Assembly (NCBI GenBank): GCA_003615045.1
Contig: ML014185.1
Location: 22,346 to 86,345, forward strand
Direction of reading: 5' to 3'
From: Caulochytrium protostelioides
Lineage: Eukaryota; Chytridiomycota; Caulochytriomycetes; Caulochytriales; Caulochytriaceae
DNA length: 64,000 nt
In this document: piece after piece, positions 56,419-63,129 of the stretch
How the letters are laid out: every line of letters begins with the position of its first letter
Position numbering within the stretch: the first letter of the stretch is position 1
Position numbers and translations under genes: made by a program
Notes under the pieces: generated by a model
The model's database searches: none
Told to the model about the DNA's origin: nothing
Seen by the model: the letters and a program-made list of their open reading frames with translations, nothing else

Positions 56419-56990
56419 CGATCCTTGTCGCCCATCCGTCGGCGGAGGCGGCGTGGCCGTCCAGGAAAAGAGCCGATCGCCGGCGGCAGCGCCCATGGGA
56501 AGGTGGCGTGGACACGGTTGTCGGGAACGACGGCTCGTGAAGGCCGACGCCCCGCGAAGGGACGTGGCGCGTGGGTGGCTGGCTGGACCGCCGCCGGTGG
56601 AGAGCGCTCGTGGACGGCGCTCGTGGAGAGCGCTCGTGGACACCCCTCGTGGACGGCGATCATCCGCGCTGCCACCAATGCCGTTCGAGGGCTGATCTTG
56701 GTGATGCCTGGCGCCGCTGTCGCCCGCCGCTGTCGCCCGCCGCCGTCGTCCGCCGCCGTCGTCCGCCGCCGCCGCCGCCGCCGCTCGCCGCGCACGATCG
56801 ACCGCGCCGCTTCGCTTCGACGGCGTCGTGCCGATCCTACGTATCGCTCCCCGCGGCGCCCTTACCCTCGCTGCTGCTCCATCGCCGCCGCATCCCTTTG
56901 CTCGAGCGCCTCTCGCCAGCATCGCGGCGGCTGCTCTGCTCGCGGCAGCAGAAGCCGTTGAACCAGCGATCGGCCGCCTGTGGCGTCGGT
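56060..56990. other. Divergent region of DSK2 and AVL9
   Basis: Contains (CGG)10 at 56388-56417, three copies of a GCGCTCGTGGA-type unit at about 56600-56650 and C-rich ccgcYgtcg repeats near 56715-56790. No independent gene seen. The AVL9 frame is open through part of it from a GTG at 56571, but that stretch is Arg-rich and unlikely to be translated. Confidence 0.5.
56388..56417. repeat. (CGG)10 microsatellite
   Basis: Ten perfect CGG units in the DSK2-AVL9 divergent spacer, 330 bases from the DSK2 start. Confidence 0.95.
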
Positions 56991-59900
56991 ATGGCGCCCT
57001 TGGAGGACGCCGATGCCGGCGCCGGCGCCGTCGACGACGCGGAGCGCGGTCCTGACGCCGACGCCACCGGGGCGATCGGCCACGTGGCGACTGGCGCGGC
57101 CATCGGCCACGAGACGGCCTCGGGCACCGCGACGGTCACGGCCGTACGCGAGGGCGCAGCAACGCCCGTGCCGGACGTCGCACCGGTCTCAGCGTCGACG
57201 CCCACCGAGCCGGGTGCGCCGCCGACCGCCGGATCGCCTACGCCGTCGCCTGATGCTGCCGCAGGCGCCGCGGTCTCCTTGGCGACAGCGCCGACCGATG
57301 CCGATCCTGATGCCGGTCCTGACGCTGATACTGATGCCAATCCTACCGCCAATCCTGACGCCGATCCTGATGCTGAGACTGACGCCGATACTGACGCCGA
57401 AGCTGGCGCCGAGGCCAATGTCAATACCGAGGCCAATGCCGCAGGGACGGTGTCCCCACCGATCGCTCCACCACTTCCGACCTCGGCGCCCCGTGCTTCG
57501 GCGCCTGCCATTGCGGAGATGGCTGCGGCGCACGCCACCACGGCGCCCTCGGCGTCGCCGTCCCCATCGGCGTCGTCGTCGCCGTCGCCATCAGCATTGC
57601 CATCGCCGGCCCCGCCGCCGGTCGTCGCGACGCCTGCCGGCGCCGGCGCTACGTACCCGCTGCACATTCTGTGCGCGGCGTTCCACCACCGGAACGGCCC
57701 GCAGATCGAGTACGTGTACCCGCCGCTGCCGGGCATGCCGCCGACGCCCGTGGCGCTCGACGACCCGACGGCCGAGCGTGCGGCGGTCGTGCTCCCGGAC
57801 GCGTGGCAGTTCCTGCCGTTCATCTGCTTGCCCGACGGCGGCCATGCGAGCGAAGAAGCGTTCATCTACTTTCACTTGCCACCGGTGCCGGCGTGGACGA
57901 TCGCGGGTGCCGGCGGCGACGACAACGACGACAACGGCGGCGGCGGCGGCGGCGACGCCGTGCACGACGGTGCTCCTGACCACGACGGCGACGGCGCGCC
58001 GCTGCATCGCGCCCGCCGGGGCCCCGTGTACGGCCAGACCCTGTTCGGGCTCGCCTGCTACCGCCAGATGCCTGCGGCAGACCTGCTCCAGCGGCCATCG
58101 GACGTCACGCGGTCGATGGTGCAGAAGGCCGTCGTCGTGCTCGCGTCGGACCCGGTGCTCTCGGGGATGCGCGACAAGCTCGGGATGGTGACGGCGGCGC
58201 TGTTTGCGCAGCGCGACTTCTCGGACCTGCGTCTCTTGCCGACGCTGTACACGACCCTCGCGTTCGGCTGGCGCACCGCGTCGCTGACGGAGCGCCACGC
58301 CGCTGTCGTGCTTGGCCTCGGCCTCCGCGACCTTGTCGCGCGCTTCCGCCACAAAGTCCTCGTGCTGCTCAAGCTGCTGATGCTCGAGCGCCGCGTCCTG
58401 TTTCTCGGCAACCACAATATGGAGCGCCTGACGGCGACGCCGTATGCGGTGGCCAGCGGCCTCCCGGGCCTCATGTTCCACCTCCAGGACGTCGGGCTAC
58501 CGGCGCTCGCCTACCCGGAGCCTGCCGTGCCGTCCTCCCTCGCCTCGCTCAACGATGATCTTGGTGACGGCGACGGTGGCGGCGGCGTCGGCGGTGGTGG
58601 CGGTCACACCGCAGACGACCACGACCACGGCCACGACAGCAACGTGGCACCGACGCCGCCTGACTATGTGAAGCTGCTGGACTGGGTCCCACCGCCGCAT
58701 TTCGAGCGCTTTCACCTGCCGCTGCGCGTGTTCGGTGCCGGGGCGTTCTTCCAGCCATACCTGCCGCTGCAGCAGCTGGACGTCCTCAGGTCGCCCGAGA
58801 CGAAGCGGTTCTGGTGCGGCACGAGCAACGCGATCGTGGTCGCCAACAAAGCACTTTTTGATGTGATCGTGCACGTCGACACGACGGTCATCGAGTTCAC
58901 GCGGCCCGGCGGCGCGCTCCAGCAAGCGCTGGCGCTGACCCCCGCCGACCGCCAGTTCATGGACGCCGTCTGCGCCGCCGTGCCCGCCGAGGCCCCCGCC
59001 GCCGCCTCCGCCGCCATCGCCCCGGCCTCAGGCGCCGCTGCTAACTGGACCTCCGACGACGTCCAGTTTCAGGGCAGCGACGACGACATCCGCGCTTCAC
59101 TCCAGAACTACGTCGTCCATACGATGGCCGCCTTCCGCCTCGACGAGCTCGACCGCGAGCGTGAAAGCGACGGCGTCACGATCGGCGCCTCCTGGGCCTC
59201 GGGGCCCGTCGCCGCTGCGAACGACCGGTCCGCGGCATCCACCACCACGGCGGCGGCGGGCACGGCGGCGACGTCCATGACGCAGGAGGCGAGCACCGAC
59301 ACCGGGTCGCCGAGCAACGGATCGTCGGGCTGGCCCACGACGCCGACGCCCACGGCGCCGCGGCCACCAGTGCTCCGCCGCGCCAGCCACGATCTCCTTG
59401 CCCCGTACAACGCCAAGTTCATCGATCTCTGGCAGCAGACCGCGAGTTTTCAGGATTGGGACATCCGCATGACCTTCGAGTTCACCCAGACGGCCGCCGA
59501 CCTCGCCCTCCTGCGTGATCTCGCCGCCCATCCGGGGACCCTGCCGGTGCGGCGTCTTGACGCTCGGCGCGGCAGCAGTACGTCGGCGCGCCATGCCGGC
59601 GGAACGGCTTCGCACGCGCCGGCAGCGGCCATCCCGCAGGACATGCCCGAAGGTACCGCCCACGCCGCGCCTCACGCATCCGAGCCGGCGCTGGGGGCGT
59701 CCAGTACGGCTCTGGGGGCCGCCGCGACCTCGGCCAGCGCCGCCGCCAGCGCCGCCGCCAACGCCGCTTCGACCGCCCTGGGCGCCTTCGGCGAGTCGCT
59801 CGCCAGCCGCTGGACCGGCATCAAGGTCGGCATCGCCGCGGCATCGACGTCGGTGGCCACCGCCGCGACCTCACCGTCGCGTCTCATGTCGGCAGCGTCC

Positions 59901-60470
59901 GGGGCGCCGGCGACGCCGGTGGCCGCGTCGGCAGGCGCGGTGTCGGCCGTGCCGTCCGACACGGCGTCGGGGCCCGCGCCGGCGCTCGCCGCCTCGGCCT
60001 TGCCGGCCAGCGCGGGCTCGCCGACGGCCTCACCGCCCTTCGCCACGGCCTCGCCGGCCACATCGCCGCCCGCGCCAGCTTTCGGAACCGGCACTGGCGC
60101 TGCCGTCGCCGCCAAAGCGTCCGGCTGGCTGACCAACGCCAAGAGCCTCTGGCGGAGCTCGTCGTTCAAGCTCGCGCCGCCGGCCGCGCCCTCGGCGTCC
60201 GCGTCCGCGTCCGCCTCCGCCTCCACAACGACGTCGCCGGCACAGTTGCCCATCCCCGCGCCAATGTCGGCGCCCGGCTCGCCGTCGGCGTGTACGGCGC
60301 TGCCGATCGCCGTACCGGCGGCGGCGCCAGATGGGGCAGACGCATCGCCCTCGCCGTCGTCGCCCGTGCCGCTGGGGCCGCCGCCGGCGCCGCTACCGCC
60401 GCTGTCCGACTACGAGGTCGTCGATACGCCTGCGCTGCAGGATCACGAGCCCGCCGAGCGCGGCGCCTGA
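56991..60470 (+). CDS. AVL9: AVL9-type DENN-domain protein of late secretion
   Basis: AVL9 acts in exocytic transport from the Golgi and carries a divergent DENN fold, usually linked to Rab activation. The 1159-residue protein has an acidic Asp/Ala/Pro-rich N-terminus (about 1-215) and then the AVL9 core at about 221-714: LHILCAAFHHRNGPQIEYVY, WQFLPFICLPDGGHASEEAF with YFHLP, GQTLFGLACYRQM, DVTRSMVQKAVVVL, HKVLVLLKLLMLERRVLFLG and a closing FWCGTSNAIVV...DVIVHVDT. The 440-residue C-terminus is Ala/Ser/Pro-rich with a conserved-looking helical piece (DWDIRMTFEFTQTAADLALL). Acidic inserts interrupt the core at 57915-58010 and 58560-58660. ATG 56991 is the first Met in protein-like sequence. Confidence 0.9.
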   Translation: MAPLEDADAGAGAVDDAERGPDADATGAIGHVATGAAIGHETASGTATVTAVREGAATPVPDVAPVSASTPTEPGAPPTAGSPTPSPDAAAGAAVSLATAPTDADPDAGPDADTDANPTANPDADPDAETDADTDAEAGAEANVNTEANAAGTVSPPIAPPLPTSAPRASAPAIAEMAAAHATTAPSASPSPSASSSPSPSALPSPAPPPVVATPAGAGATYPLHILCAAFHHRNGPQIEYVYPPLPGMPPTPVALDDPTAERAAVVLPDAWQFLPFICLPDGGHASEEAFIYFHLPPVPAWTIAGAGGDDNDDNGGGGGGDAVHDGAPDHDGDGAPLHRARRGPVYGQTLFGLACYRQMPAADLLQRPSDVTRSMVQKAVVVLASDPVLSGMRDKLGMVTAALFAQRDFSDLRLLPTLYTTLAFGWRTASLTERHAAVVLGLGLRDLVARFRHKVLVLLKLLMLERRVLFLGNHNMERLTATPYAVASGLPGLMFHLQDVGLPALAYPEPAVPSSLASLNDDLGDGDGGGGVGGGGGHTADDHDHGHDSNVAPTPPDYVKLLDWVPPPHFERFHLPLRVFGAGAFFQPYLPLQQLDVLRSPETKRFWCGTSNAIVVANKALFDVIVHVDTTVIEFTRPGGALQQALALTPADRQFMDAVCAAVPAEAPAAASAAIAPASGAAANWTSDDVQFQGSDDDIRASLQNYVVHTMAAFRLDELDRERESDGVTIGASWASGPVAAANDRSAASTTTAAAGTAATSMTQEASTDTGSPSNGSSGWPTTPTPTAPRPPVLRRASHDLLAPYNAKFIDLWQQTASFQDWDIRMTFEFTQTAADLALLRDLAAHPGTLPVRRLDARRGSSTSARHAGGTASHAPAAAIPQDMPEGTAHAAPHASEPALGASSTALGAAATSASAAASAAANAASTALGAFGESLASRWTGIKVGIAAASTSVATAATSPSRLMSAASGAPATPVAASAGAVSAVPSDTASGPAPALAASALPASAGSPTASPPFATASPATSPPAPAFGTGTGAAVAAKASGWLTNAKSLWRSSSFKLAPPAAPSASASASASASTTTSPAQLPIPAPMSAPGSPSACTALPIAVPAAAPDGADASPSPSSPVPLGPPPAPLPPLSDYEVVDTPALQDHEPAERGA
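57297..57437 (+). repeat. Asp-Ala/Asp-Pro coding minisatellite in AVL9
   Basis: Alternating hexamers of the form GAYGCC and RAYCCT/ACT encode a run of DADPDAETDA-like residues. Third positions here include many T, unlike the rest of the gene, which suggests recent expansion by slippage. Confidence 0.8.
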
Positions 60471-60844: not shown

Positions 60845-61228
60845 GATCGTGGCCGCGAGGTTCCTCCTGATGCGGGACCGACGGATCGACCGATCGACCG
60901 ATGTGCGGAACGATCGCTCATGGATGAGAAATGCGGCATCACGTAGAATGAAACCAATGGCATGCATCATCGACGAGCGGTGTTGGTGGATGGCCAATGA
61001 CATGGGACCCGCAAGTCCGGCGCCGTCACACCCGAATCCACGCTCCCATACGCAGCACCGCGATCGTGTGGTTTATCGATCTTTGGCAGCGTCTGGCTCG
61101 ACCACGCTCGACCCCCCGATTTTCGATTCTCGTTCTGGTCCTCCGGTCGTCTGTGCGATCTTCGCCGCTCTCGCGATGGCCTGCCCGATGCGGAACGCGC
61201 CGCCCTCGGGCACCGTCACGCGCGCCAG

Positions 61229-61496
61229 GTAAGGTGTCGTGCTCTCTGCTCTATGACGTGATCCTCGCTGACCGTGCATCGGCTTGCACCATACTGCACC
61301 AGACGCTCACGCAGCGCATCGGTCTTTCCATGCTCACGCGCGCCCCTGTTGGGGTCGACGGCGATGATCCCTGGGGCCTCCATGCCAAACGGCCGGACGC
61401 GTGCCGTCTACCTTCTGCCTTTGGTCGTGGTTTCCCTTGCATCATATCGCATCATATCGCATCGTTCCACATCGCATCCGATCGCATCGACCATAG
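61229..61496 (+). other. Candidate 5' intron of the catalase-like gene
   Basis: A strong donor CAG|GTAAGG at 61226-61234 follows a short open frame beginning ATG 61176 (MACPMRNAPPSGTVTRA). Joining to an acceptor ending ATAG at 61496 puts this exon in frame with LMQDARLQEKL, where typical catalases have a similar L-L/M-Q-D segment. The acceptor has a weak pyrimidine tract, so the model is plausible but unproven. Confidence 0.35.
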
Positions 61497-61500
61497 CCTC

Positions 61501-63129
61501 ATGCAGGATGCGCGGCTACAGGAGAAGCTGTCACACTTCAACCGCGAGCGCATCGCCCCCCGCGTTTGCTATGCGAAGGGCACCGGCGCCGCGGGATACT
61601 TCGTGGTGACCCACGACATCGCGGCACATACGACAGCGCGGTTCCTGTCGCGCGTCGGGCGCCGAACGCCGCTGTTTCTTCGGTTCTCCCACTTCCGCGG
61701 CGACAAGGGCGCTGCGGACACGCGCCGCGACCACCGCGGCGCCGCCCTCAAGCTCTATACCGAGGAGGGCAACCTGGACCTGGTCTGCGCGAGTCTGCCC
61801 GTCTACCCGATCCGCGACGCCGCGCGATTCCCGGATCTGGTGCGGGCGCTGCGGCGGCACCCGCGCACGGGCCTCGAGGACCCGCGCGCCTTCTGGGACT
61901 TCCTCAGCCTGCAACCCTGCGCGCTGCACTACCTGCTGATGCTCTTCTCGGACCGCGGCCTGCCGGACGGGTTCGCGCATATGCCGTTCTACAGCGGCCA
62001 CGTGCTCAAGCTCGTCGACGCTTCCGGCCACGTGCGGTTTGCCAAGTGGCACTTCACGCCGGCCCAGGGCATCCGCTCCCTGGACCCGACGCGCGCCGCC
62101 CGCCTCGCCGCCAGCGACCCGGATTATGCCGTGCGCGACCTCCAGACCCGCATCGACGCCGAGGCGTTCCCGACCTGGACGGCGTGGATCCAGCTCCTCG
62201 ACATCGAGCAGGTCGCGGCGCTACCGTGGGATCCGCTCGATGTCACGAAGGTCTGGCCCCACGCGCTTGCGCCGCTGCTCGAGGTCGGCCGCATCGTCCT
62301 CAACCGCGTCCCCGAAAACGACTTCAATGCCACCGAGCAGGCCGCCTTCTCGCCCGCCAACCTCGTGCCAGGCATCGAGGCCACCTACGAGATGCAGGCC
62401 CGGCTCTTCGCCTACCGCGACACCCAATACCACCGCCTCGGCCCCAACTTCGCCCAGATCCCTGTCAACACCGCCTACATGGCCGGCGACACCCCCAACC
62501 ACTGGGACGGCCAGATGCATATCGCCACCGAGCGCCTCAGCTCCGAGCGGCCTCACTACTTCCCCAACACGACCCCGGCCGCCGCCGCCCGCGCCACCGC
62601 GGCCACCGCCGCGGCCAACCTCATCATCACGGCCAAGACGGCGGCGACCCCCGCCGTTGCCGAGCCGCCGTCGACGTCTGCCGCCCGCGCGCCGTCGAGC
62701 CGCCATGCGGCTCGCCATCCCCAGGACCGCGTCGCCGACGAAGACGGCGTCGACAACCGCGGCGCTGCGGCGCGGGCCCCACCCATCGCGGCTCGGCGTC
62801 GTGACCCGCGGCGCTCCGCAGACCGCCGGCGCCGCGCCGGCCACGACCACGACCCCGACGCTCCCTGCGGCGACGCCGGCGACGACGCCGATGCCGACGA
62901 CGACTTCACGCAGCCGGCCCGGTTCTGGGCGATGCTGGACCGCGGTGCGCAGACGCGCCTGGCCGCCGCGCTGGCCGCCAGTCTCCGGGAGGCCGATGCG
63001 GCGGTCCAGCGCCGCATGCTCGAGCTTCTCGCGCGGGTCGCGGCGGATCTCGCCGACGCCGTCCGCGCCCATCTGGGCACCGCCGCGACCGCCGCGCCCG
63101 CCGCTGCCGGCCCGACCGCCCACATCTAG
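61501..63129 (+). CDS. Catalase-fold heme protein lacking the catalytic distal histidine
   Basis: The 542-residue protein aligns along the whole catalase family: EKLSHFNRERIAPRV, GYFVVTHDI, RFSHFRGDKGAADT, KLYTEEGNLDLV, LFSDRGLPDGFAHM, DLTKVWPH-like DVTKVWPH, and the proximal heme segment RLFAYRDTQYHRLGPNF with the heme-ligand Tyr305 and Arg301 kept. A catalase-rel C-terminal helix bundle follows a 120-residue Ala/Arg-rich insert. Yet the distal His (bovine His75) is Tyr24 (codon 61570-61572), preceded by Cys23, and the distal Asn (bovine Asn148) is Ala97 (codon 61789-61791). The spacing of 73 between these two sites equals bovine catalase, so the alignment is ungapped there. Normal hydrogen-peroxide dismutation should be lost or very low. 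ATG 61501 is the conservative start; a 5' exon may add 18 residues. No stop or frameshift breaks the gene. Confidence 0.88.
   Translation: MQDARLQEKLSHFNRERIAPRVCYAKGTGAAGYFVVTHDIAAHTTARFLSRVGRRTPLFLRFSHFRGDKGAADTRRDHRGAALKLYTEEGNLDLVCASLPVYPIRDAARFPDLVRALRRHPRTGLEDPRAFWDFLSLQPCALHYLLMLFSDRGLPDGFAHMPFYSGHVLKLVDASGHVRFAKWHFTPAQGIRSLDPTRAARLAASDPDYAVRDLQTRIDAEAFPTWTAWIQLLDIEQVAALPWDPLDVTKVWPHALAPLLEVGRIVLNRVPENDFNATEQAAFSPANLVPGIEATYEMQARLFAYRDTQYHRLGPNFAQIPVNTAYMAGDTPNHWDGQMHIATERLSSERPHYFPNTTPAAAARATAATAAANLIITAKTAATPAVAEPPSTSAARAPSSRHAARHPQDRVADEDGVDNRGAAARAPPIAARRRDPRRSADRRRRAGHDHDPDAPCGDAGDDADADDDFTQPARFWAMLDRGAQTRLAAALAASLREADAAVQRRMLELLARVAADLADAVRAHLGTAATAAPAAAGPTAHI

Follow-up and report, generated by a model that had tools for sequence, protein, structure and literature searches.

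Few active sites in biochemistry vary as little as that of heme catalases, and without the distal acid-base residues fast splitting of the peroxide O-O bond is impossible. According to a review (PMC9687031), the distal side has a Ser and a Phe besides its essential His and catalytic Asn, and the channel holds the gate-valve Phe pair with a Val and a Leu opposite. On the anchoring side are the Tyr ligand and three Arg for the propionates, together with one more Arg and either a His or an Asn. The review also gives Arg203 with His or Gln at 305 as the rule for NADPH binding and a small residue at 217 as the rule for the clade-3 heme orientation. A catalase-related allene oxide synthase/hydroperoxide lyase of coral is described, in the accessible part of one paper (PMC5617202), as a catalase-derived heme protein that does not scavenge H2O2. 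Caulochytrium protostelioides is a mycoparasite that is grown with Sordaria and has isolate and single-cell assemblies (PMC6784888, in part). The window analysed here, a stretch of 64,000 nucleotides of this fungus (GCA_003615045.1, contig ML014185.1, positions 22,346 to 86,345, forward strand), encodes a small-subunit catalase, here called the pseudo-catalase, whose distal His and Asn are replaced by Tyr and Ala. Catalase activity has very probably been lost from this protein, and the preferred reading, with a probability of about 0.5, is that the native small-subunit catalase has become a heme protein without catalatic activity that is kept by selection.

The features of the gene are given below in window coordinates, with residues on the human catalase scale (window residue plus 50).

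61501..63129, plus strand: pseudo-catalase open reading frame (ORF), 543 codons, from the ATG of MQDARLQEKL to a TAG stop
61492..62571, plus strand: PF00199 catalase domain (436.5 bits), covering profile positions 22-380 of 383 and residues 166-525 of the frame from 60997
61561..61581, plus strand: RVCYAKG, which retains the propionate Arg72 and has V74C and a Tyr in place of the distal H75
61570-61572, plus strand: Tyr codon TAT at the distal His position
61681..61698, plus strand: RFSHFR, R112 and S114 kept, T115H, V116F, G117R
61777..61809, plus strand: DLVCASLPVYP, with an Ala in place of the distal N148, the changes G147C, N149S and T150L, and F153Y and F154P at the gate valve
61789-61791, plus strand: Ala codon GCG at the distal Asn position (DLVCASLP, 61777-61800)
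61954..61956, plus strand: Arg203 of the NADPH rule, kept
61996..62001, plus strand: Gly217-His218, both kept, the small residue of the clade-3 heme orientation and the conserved proximal-side His
62260..62262, plus strand: His305 of the NADPH rule, kept
62401..62436, plus strand: RLFAYRDTQYHR, which retains the proximal R354, Y358 as the heme ligand and R365 as a propionate Arg
62569..62892, plus strand: low-complexity linker of 108 residues, low model confidence, G+C at second codon positions 0.72, a possible insert or unspliced intron
62890..63075, plus strand: PF06628 catalase-related C-terminal helical domain, Pfam match of 49.8 bits
63118..63126, plus strand: C-terminal -Ala-His-Ile, which fits the pattern of a peroxisomal targeting signal type 1 (PTS1)
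61348..61496, plus strand: putative 5' intron that scores best among 21 splice candidates, with 61401-61496 as an alternative

In PDB alignments, RVCYAKG and DLVCASLP align to RVVHAKG and DLVGNNTP of mammalian catalase. The homologue set consists of 119 sequences, which are the best 120 of 2113 matches (7996 candidates scored) minus the window's own copy (P0001). The distal His column is His in 119/119 and the distal Asn column Asn in 119/119, and none of these homologues carries the Tyr/Ala change. Translation, alignment and homologues thus bear out the two motif replacements that an earlier sequence-only reading of the window had pointed out; that reading understated the extent of the change, since at least 12 more residues of the pocket region depart from the usual type (V74C, T115H, V116F, P129H, G147C, N149S, T150L, F153Y, F154P, F164L, H166R and Q168L), and I165 and K169 are changed as well. 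The gate-valve pair, Phe in 119/119 homologues at both columns, is Tyr and Pro here. The distal His, the distal Asn and the Phe pair, which are expected of a functional monofunctional heme catalase, are absent. Among 130 near-invariant columns the pseudo-catalase is changed at 32, while the homologues have a median of 1 and a maximum of 7. An HPII-type catalase from the same genome departs at 23/130, as expected for another clade, and keeps the His, the Asn and both Phe. Titles and abstract openings of the open-access PMC literature yielded no natural catalase that lacks the distal His, which is not proof of absence.

An error of sequence or assembly at the two codons, behind which the true gene would be an ordinary catalase, is very improbable. 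The codons are read from one assembly (20.9 Mb in 337 contigs), in which some 0.9 kb separate the gene from its contig end (C75; the window ends at base 86345), but more than 12 pocket substitutions are clustered and in frame, there is no frameshift and the codon-position signal is normal, which makes base-calling error unlikely.

The anchoring side is preserved. The proximal Tyr ligand, the proximal Arg and the three propionate Arg are kept (5/5), and so are His218, Ser114 and Asp128. The PF00199 score lies above the curated cut-off and the predicted fold is that of a catalase, which together place the protein in the superfamily by descent and fold. Here too the sequence-only reading is upheld, in that the gene is uninterrupted and has lost the distal catalytic pair, while the C-terminal domain (PF06628), the Ser that follows RF and the proximal Tyr/Arg segment remain. 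R203 and H305 agree with the NADPH rule and G217 with the clade-3 (His-III) rule of heme orientation. On a residue list derived from the review, 6/8 distal or channel residues are lost against 0/6 anchors (Fisher p 0.0097), a value that serves as a guide only, because the list was compiled after the losses were known and some residue numbers come from outside the review. This applies to Ser114, Phe161, the Arg, the Tyr and His218, and channel residues were placed on the basis that CAT-1 and human numbers differ by 17. One listed residue, G117, is conserved in just 109/119 homologues, and without it the distal or channel loss is 5/7. When the protein is divided into halves, 26/80 near-invariant positions are changed in one and 6/50 in the other (p 0.011). 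A stronger apparent clustering, 14/17 against 18/113 (p 9e-8), is not relied on, as its pocket list was not derived from the review and was written after the losses had been seen.

The fold of the pseudo-catalase is predicted to be intact. The protein would still bind ferric heme b via Tyr358 and probably NADPH at the usual site, and the loss of the distal acid-base would leave it without fast splitting of the O-O bond. Tyr75 may sit over or near the ferric iron on the distal face, or may ligate it. The role under selection would now be that of a heme- and NADPH-binding protein, possibly peroxisomal, that holds a ligand or heme or carries out slow one-electron chemistry, and not catalase activity. 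The candidate functions put forward by the sequence-only reading were a heme sensor, a role with a gas or lipid peroxide as ligand, and a redox centre based on Tyr/Cys.

A more active use of the altered pocket has also to be weighed, in which Tyr75 would act together with the newly gained His115, Cys74 and Cys147 in NADPH-fed distal chemistry, such as that of an organic-hydroperoxide or one-electron peroxidase or of a redox Tyr/Cys centre. The pocket appears rebuilt and not just emptied, with T115H and two Cys beside Tyr75; position 115 is Thr in 108/119 homologues, His is not among the four commonest types there, and the residues of the NADPH rule are kept. Against this, V116F would narrow the channel and not widen it, the new pocket is common to no lineage among the 119 homologues, and the coral allene oxide synthase retains its His, Thr and Asn (PMC5617202, in the part available). 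New catalysis of this kind is quite unlikely.

In a tree of 49 rows, the pseudo-catalase falls within a group of 39 clade-3 rows that is split from the HPII-type rows with support 100/100, and its place inside this group is unsure because of its long branch. The tree position, the Arg203/His305 pair and the small residue 217 agree with clade 3, and it is the only recognisable small-subunit (clade-3 type) catalase of the genome. Its branch has a length of 2.37, where the median for end branches is 0.21, and the program warns that placement of so long a row is unsure; in a tree of 28 rows it measures 1.17 against a median tip of 0.177, or 6.6 times. The sequence-only reading had called the gene constrained, which is supported in part; the whole protein, with this 6.6-fold branch and 32/130 near-invariant positions changed, is not simply constrained. 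Compared with the other branches of the tree, the excess amounts to 0.266 for the distal half and 0.137 for the remainder, a twofold difference in which the remainder is fast too.

These rates are what a recent decaying relic would show, that is, a gene made redundant by the arrival of a bacterial enzyme and under relaxed selection, with no stop or frameshift yet and with residual retention of the heme site. The changes at near-invariant positions (at most 7 in any homologue), the unrecognised N-terminal arm, the low-complexity linker and the lack of an orthologue that would show maintenance agree with such a relic. It is, however, opposed by the stop-free 543 codons, by the retention of 6/6 heme anchors while distal residues were lost, and by the PF06628 domain and PTS1-like tail retained at the far end. 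Under first-order Markov models 5.1 to 7.7 stops are expected in the ORF and none is found, the probability of none being 0.0005 to 0.006 by base model, and about 0.004 to 0.006 with models from the gene itself. This openness is modest evidence, because stops are also few in the two other plus-strand frames (2 and 1) and in one minus frame (3), and because the window has 70.5% GC. The G+C content by codon position is 0.695/0.468/0.905 in the core, 0.844/0.597/0.909 in the PF06628 part and 0.817/0.725/0.872 in the linker, so that the second position is low in the core and in the C-terminal domain and not in the linker, which also speaks against decay. A recent relic could equally show a stop-free frame and this codon-position signal, and we regard it as a possible, if doubtful, account of the gene.

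Several observations weigh against a selected, catalatically dead heme protein. The proximal half is accelerated as well (1.07 against a median tip of 0.21), as in general decay, and the listed homologues include no sister sequence that would document retention of the Tyr and Ala. Splice modelling did not recover the N-terminal arm, the part by which catalase subunits interlock. Confidence in the structure model is moderate, with a mean predicted local distance difference test (pLDDT) score of 69.1 and values below 50 at residues 12-24 and 68-73. Heme retention is made doubtful by a yeast variant at the F153-equivalent residue, which the available part of the review reports as a poor heme binder (PMC9687031). 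The order, with acquisition of a bacterial catalase first and loss second, is a presumed one.

The sequence-only reading had also suggested a check for a second, canonical catalase in the genome, and one is present. It is an HPII/KatE-type enzyme of 805 residues in a single frame (L001, G000:C8:169890-171044), and it matches a protein recorded for Caulochytrium protostelioides (P0121) without difference from end to end. In a search that scored the 7999 candidates sharing most words, its best 119 listed matches beyond itself are 69-74% identical, and those with names are Burkholderiales, mostly Variovorax. In the 49-row tree it groups with four bacterial rows (support 100/98). Its contig has 257,344 bases, and its neighbours are read as fungal; they are a frame of 1780 residues that carries AAA_11/AAA_12 helicase domains, a protein with two RRMs and a weak match to GNAT. 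The gene is thus apparently of bacterial, seemingly Burkholderiales, origin within a fungal genome, judging by its sequence. Bacterial-origin catalases were reported earlier for Batrachochytrium dendrobatidis, as cited in the accessible part of a paper (PMC11291939). Acquisition of such an enzyme would have freed the native catalase from H2O2 dismutation, after or alongside the acquisition.

Two PF00141 peroxidase genes, L019 and L020, are also found in the genome. By eye, the N-terminal extension of L020 looks mitochondrial and neither frame ends in a PTS1. The C-terminal residues of the HPII-type catalase are -QNV, which match no PTS1, and those of the pseudo-catalase are -AHI. This -AHI tail agrees with a stricter PTS1 pattern (chance 0.0089 from tail composition), which 18/119 homologues match. 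It also fits a loose published pattern (PMC12316961), with a chance of 0.059 from tail composition. The genome has three Pex2/Pex12-type matches and three acyl-CoA oxidase matches, and 2/3 of the acyl-CoA oxidase frames end in -ARL and -AKL (longest frames, by eye). Peroxisomal import of the pseudo-catalase is plausible from its PTS1-like tail together with these genes.

The plus-strand frame is open from 60997 to 63129, that is, upstream beyond the ATG at 61501. The best of the 21 GT-AG splice models for an N-terminal arm upstream of this ATG reaches 38.8 bits against 31.9 unspliced, and none is convincing. The segment MLTRAPVGVDGDDPWGLHAKRPDA was considered as this arm and is not claimed, its gain over the unspliced form being just 1.4 bits. 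The product of the adjoining ORF at 56571-60470 is a transport protein of the Avl9/DENN type (PF09794 match of 309 bits) with long low-complexity stretches. Within the 64-kb window no RNA families or tRNAs reach threshold, and a bacterial promoter and terminator scan, which is not meaningful for fungal DNA, returned nothing.

A natural protein that has the proximal heme site without the distal one would help to tell whether heme affinity, ligand binding and spectrum depend on the proximal or the distal half of the pocket. Its pairing with an apparently acquired bacterial catalase makes a clean case for the fate of a native enzyme displaced by a foreign one. The tails, -QNV on the canonical and -AHI on the dead catalase, raise the puzzle of how peroxide is cleared in peroxisomes with acyl-CoA oxidases. 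A further and unlikely reading is that of a selected heme protein with a new distal pocket (Tyr75, His115, Cys74 and Cys147), used for peroxisomal signalling or NADPH-linked reactions in the mycoparasite after the bacterial catalase took over its duty; if true, it would document replacement of an enzyme by horizontal transfer and then reuse of the displaced native one.

Distal Tyr is found in other catalases. The codon pattern R-V-x-Y-A-[KR]-G-x-G-A-x-G-x-F, scanned over 84,980 bacterial and archaeal genomes, gave 14 stretches, of which five are catalases in frame with distal Tyr; as a count of such catalases this is a lower bound, because the pattern is codon-limited. These belong to Dactylosporangium (L004), Rummeliibacillus (L006), Micromonospora (L008) and Xylophilus (L009 and L016), and the statement of the sequence-only reading that known catalases retain the distal His is not supported in that form. 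The other 9/14 stretches are short frames that are not catalases; seven of them are from Paenibacillus (L003, L005, L007, L010, L011, L012 and L015) and apparently represent one conserved locus read in another frame. A masked-motif protein search among 4166 word-sharing candidates gave none at E 10 or better, which is uninformative and not evidence of absence because the masked query carries little score. The five bacterial sequences resemble the window gene in having Tyr at the distal His in an otherwise recognisable catalase. Unlike it, they sit with the HPII-type rows (clade-2-like) and keep most of the distal pocket, and they are not its ancestors. N148 is kept in 3/5, and the F153/F154 pair is FF in two, FY in one and YY in two, the last being both Xylophilus sequences. 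Distal Tyr therefore arises without the wide remodelling of the window gene.

Compared with clade-3 small-subunit catalases (human, beef and mucoromycete peroxisomal), the window gene differs in the distal His, the distal Asn, the gate-valve Phe pair and the channel Val, has no recognised N-terminal arm and has an extra linker before PF06628. The coral allene oxide synthase keeps distal His67, Thr66 and Asn137 (PMC5617202, available part), whereas the window gene has Tyr at the His and Ala at the Asn, and by these two positions it falls outside that class. Escherichia coli HPII H128N, termed inactive in the review (PMC9687031), and Proteus mirabilis H54F (PDB 3hb6) have the distal His replaced and are inactive yet foldable. 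Those are single changes made in the laboratory, while the window gene is natural and widely remodelled.
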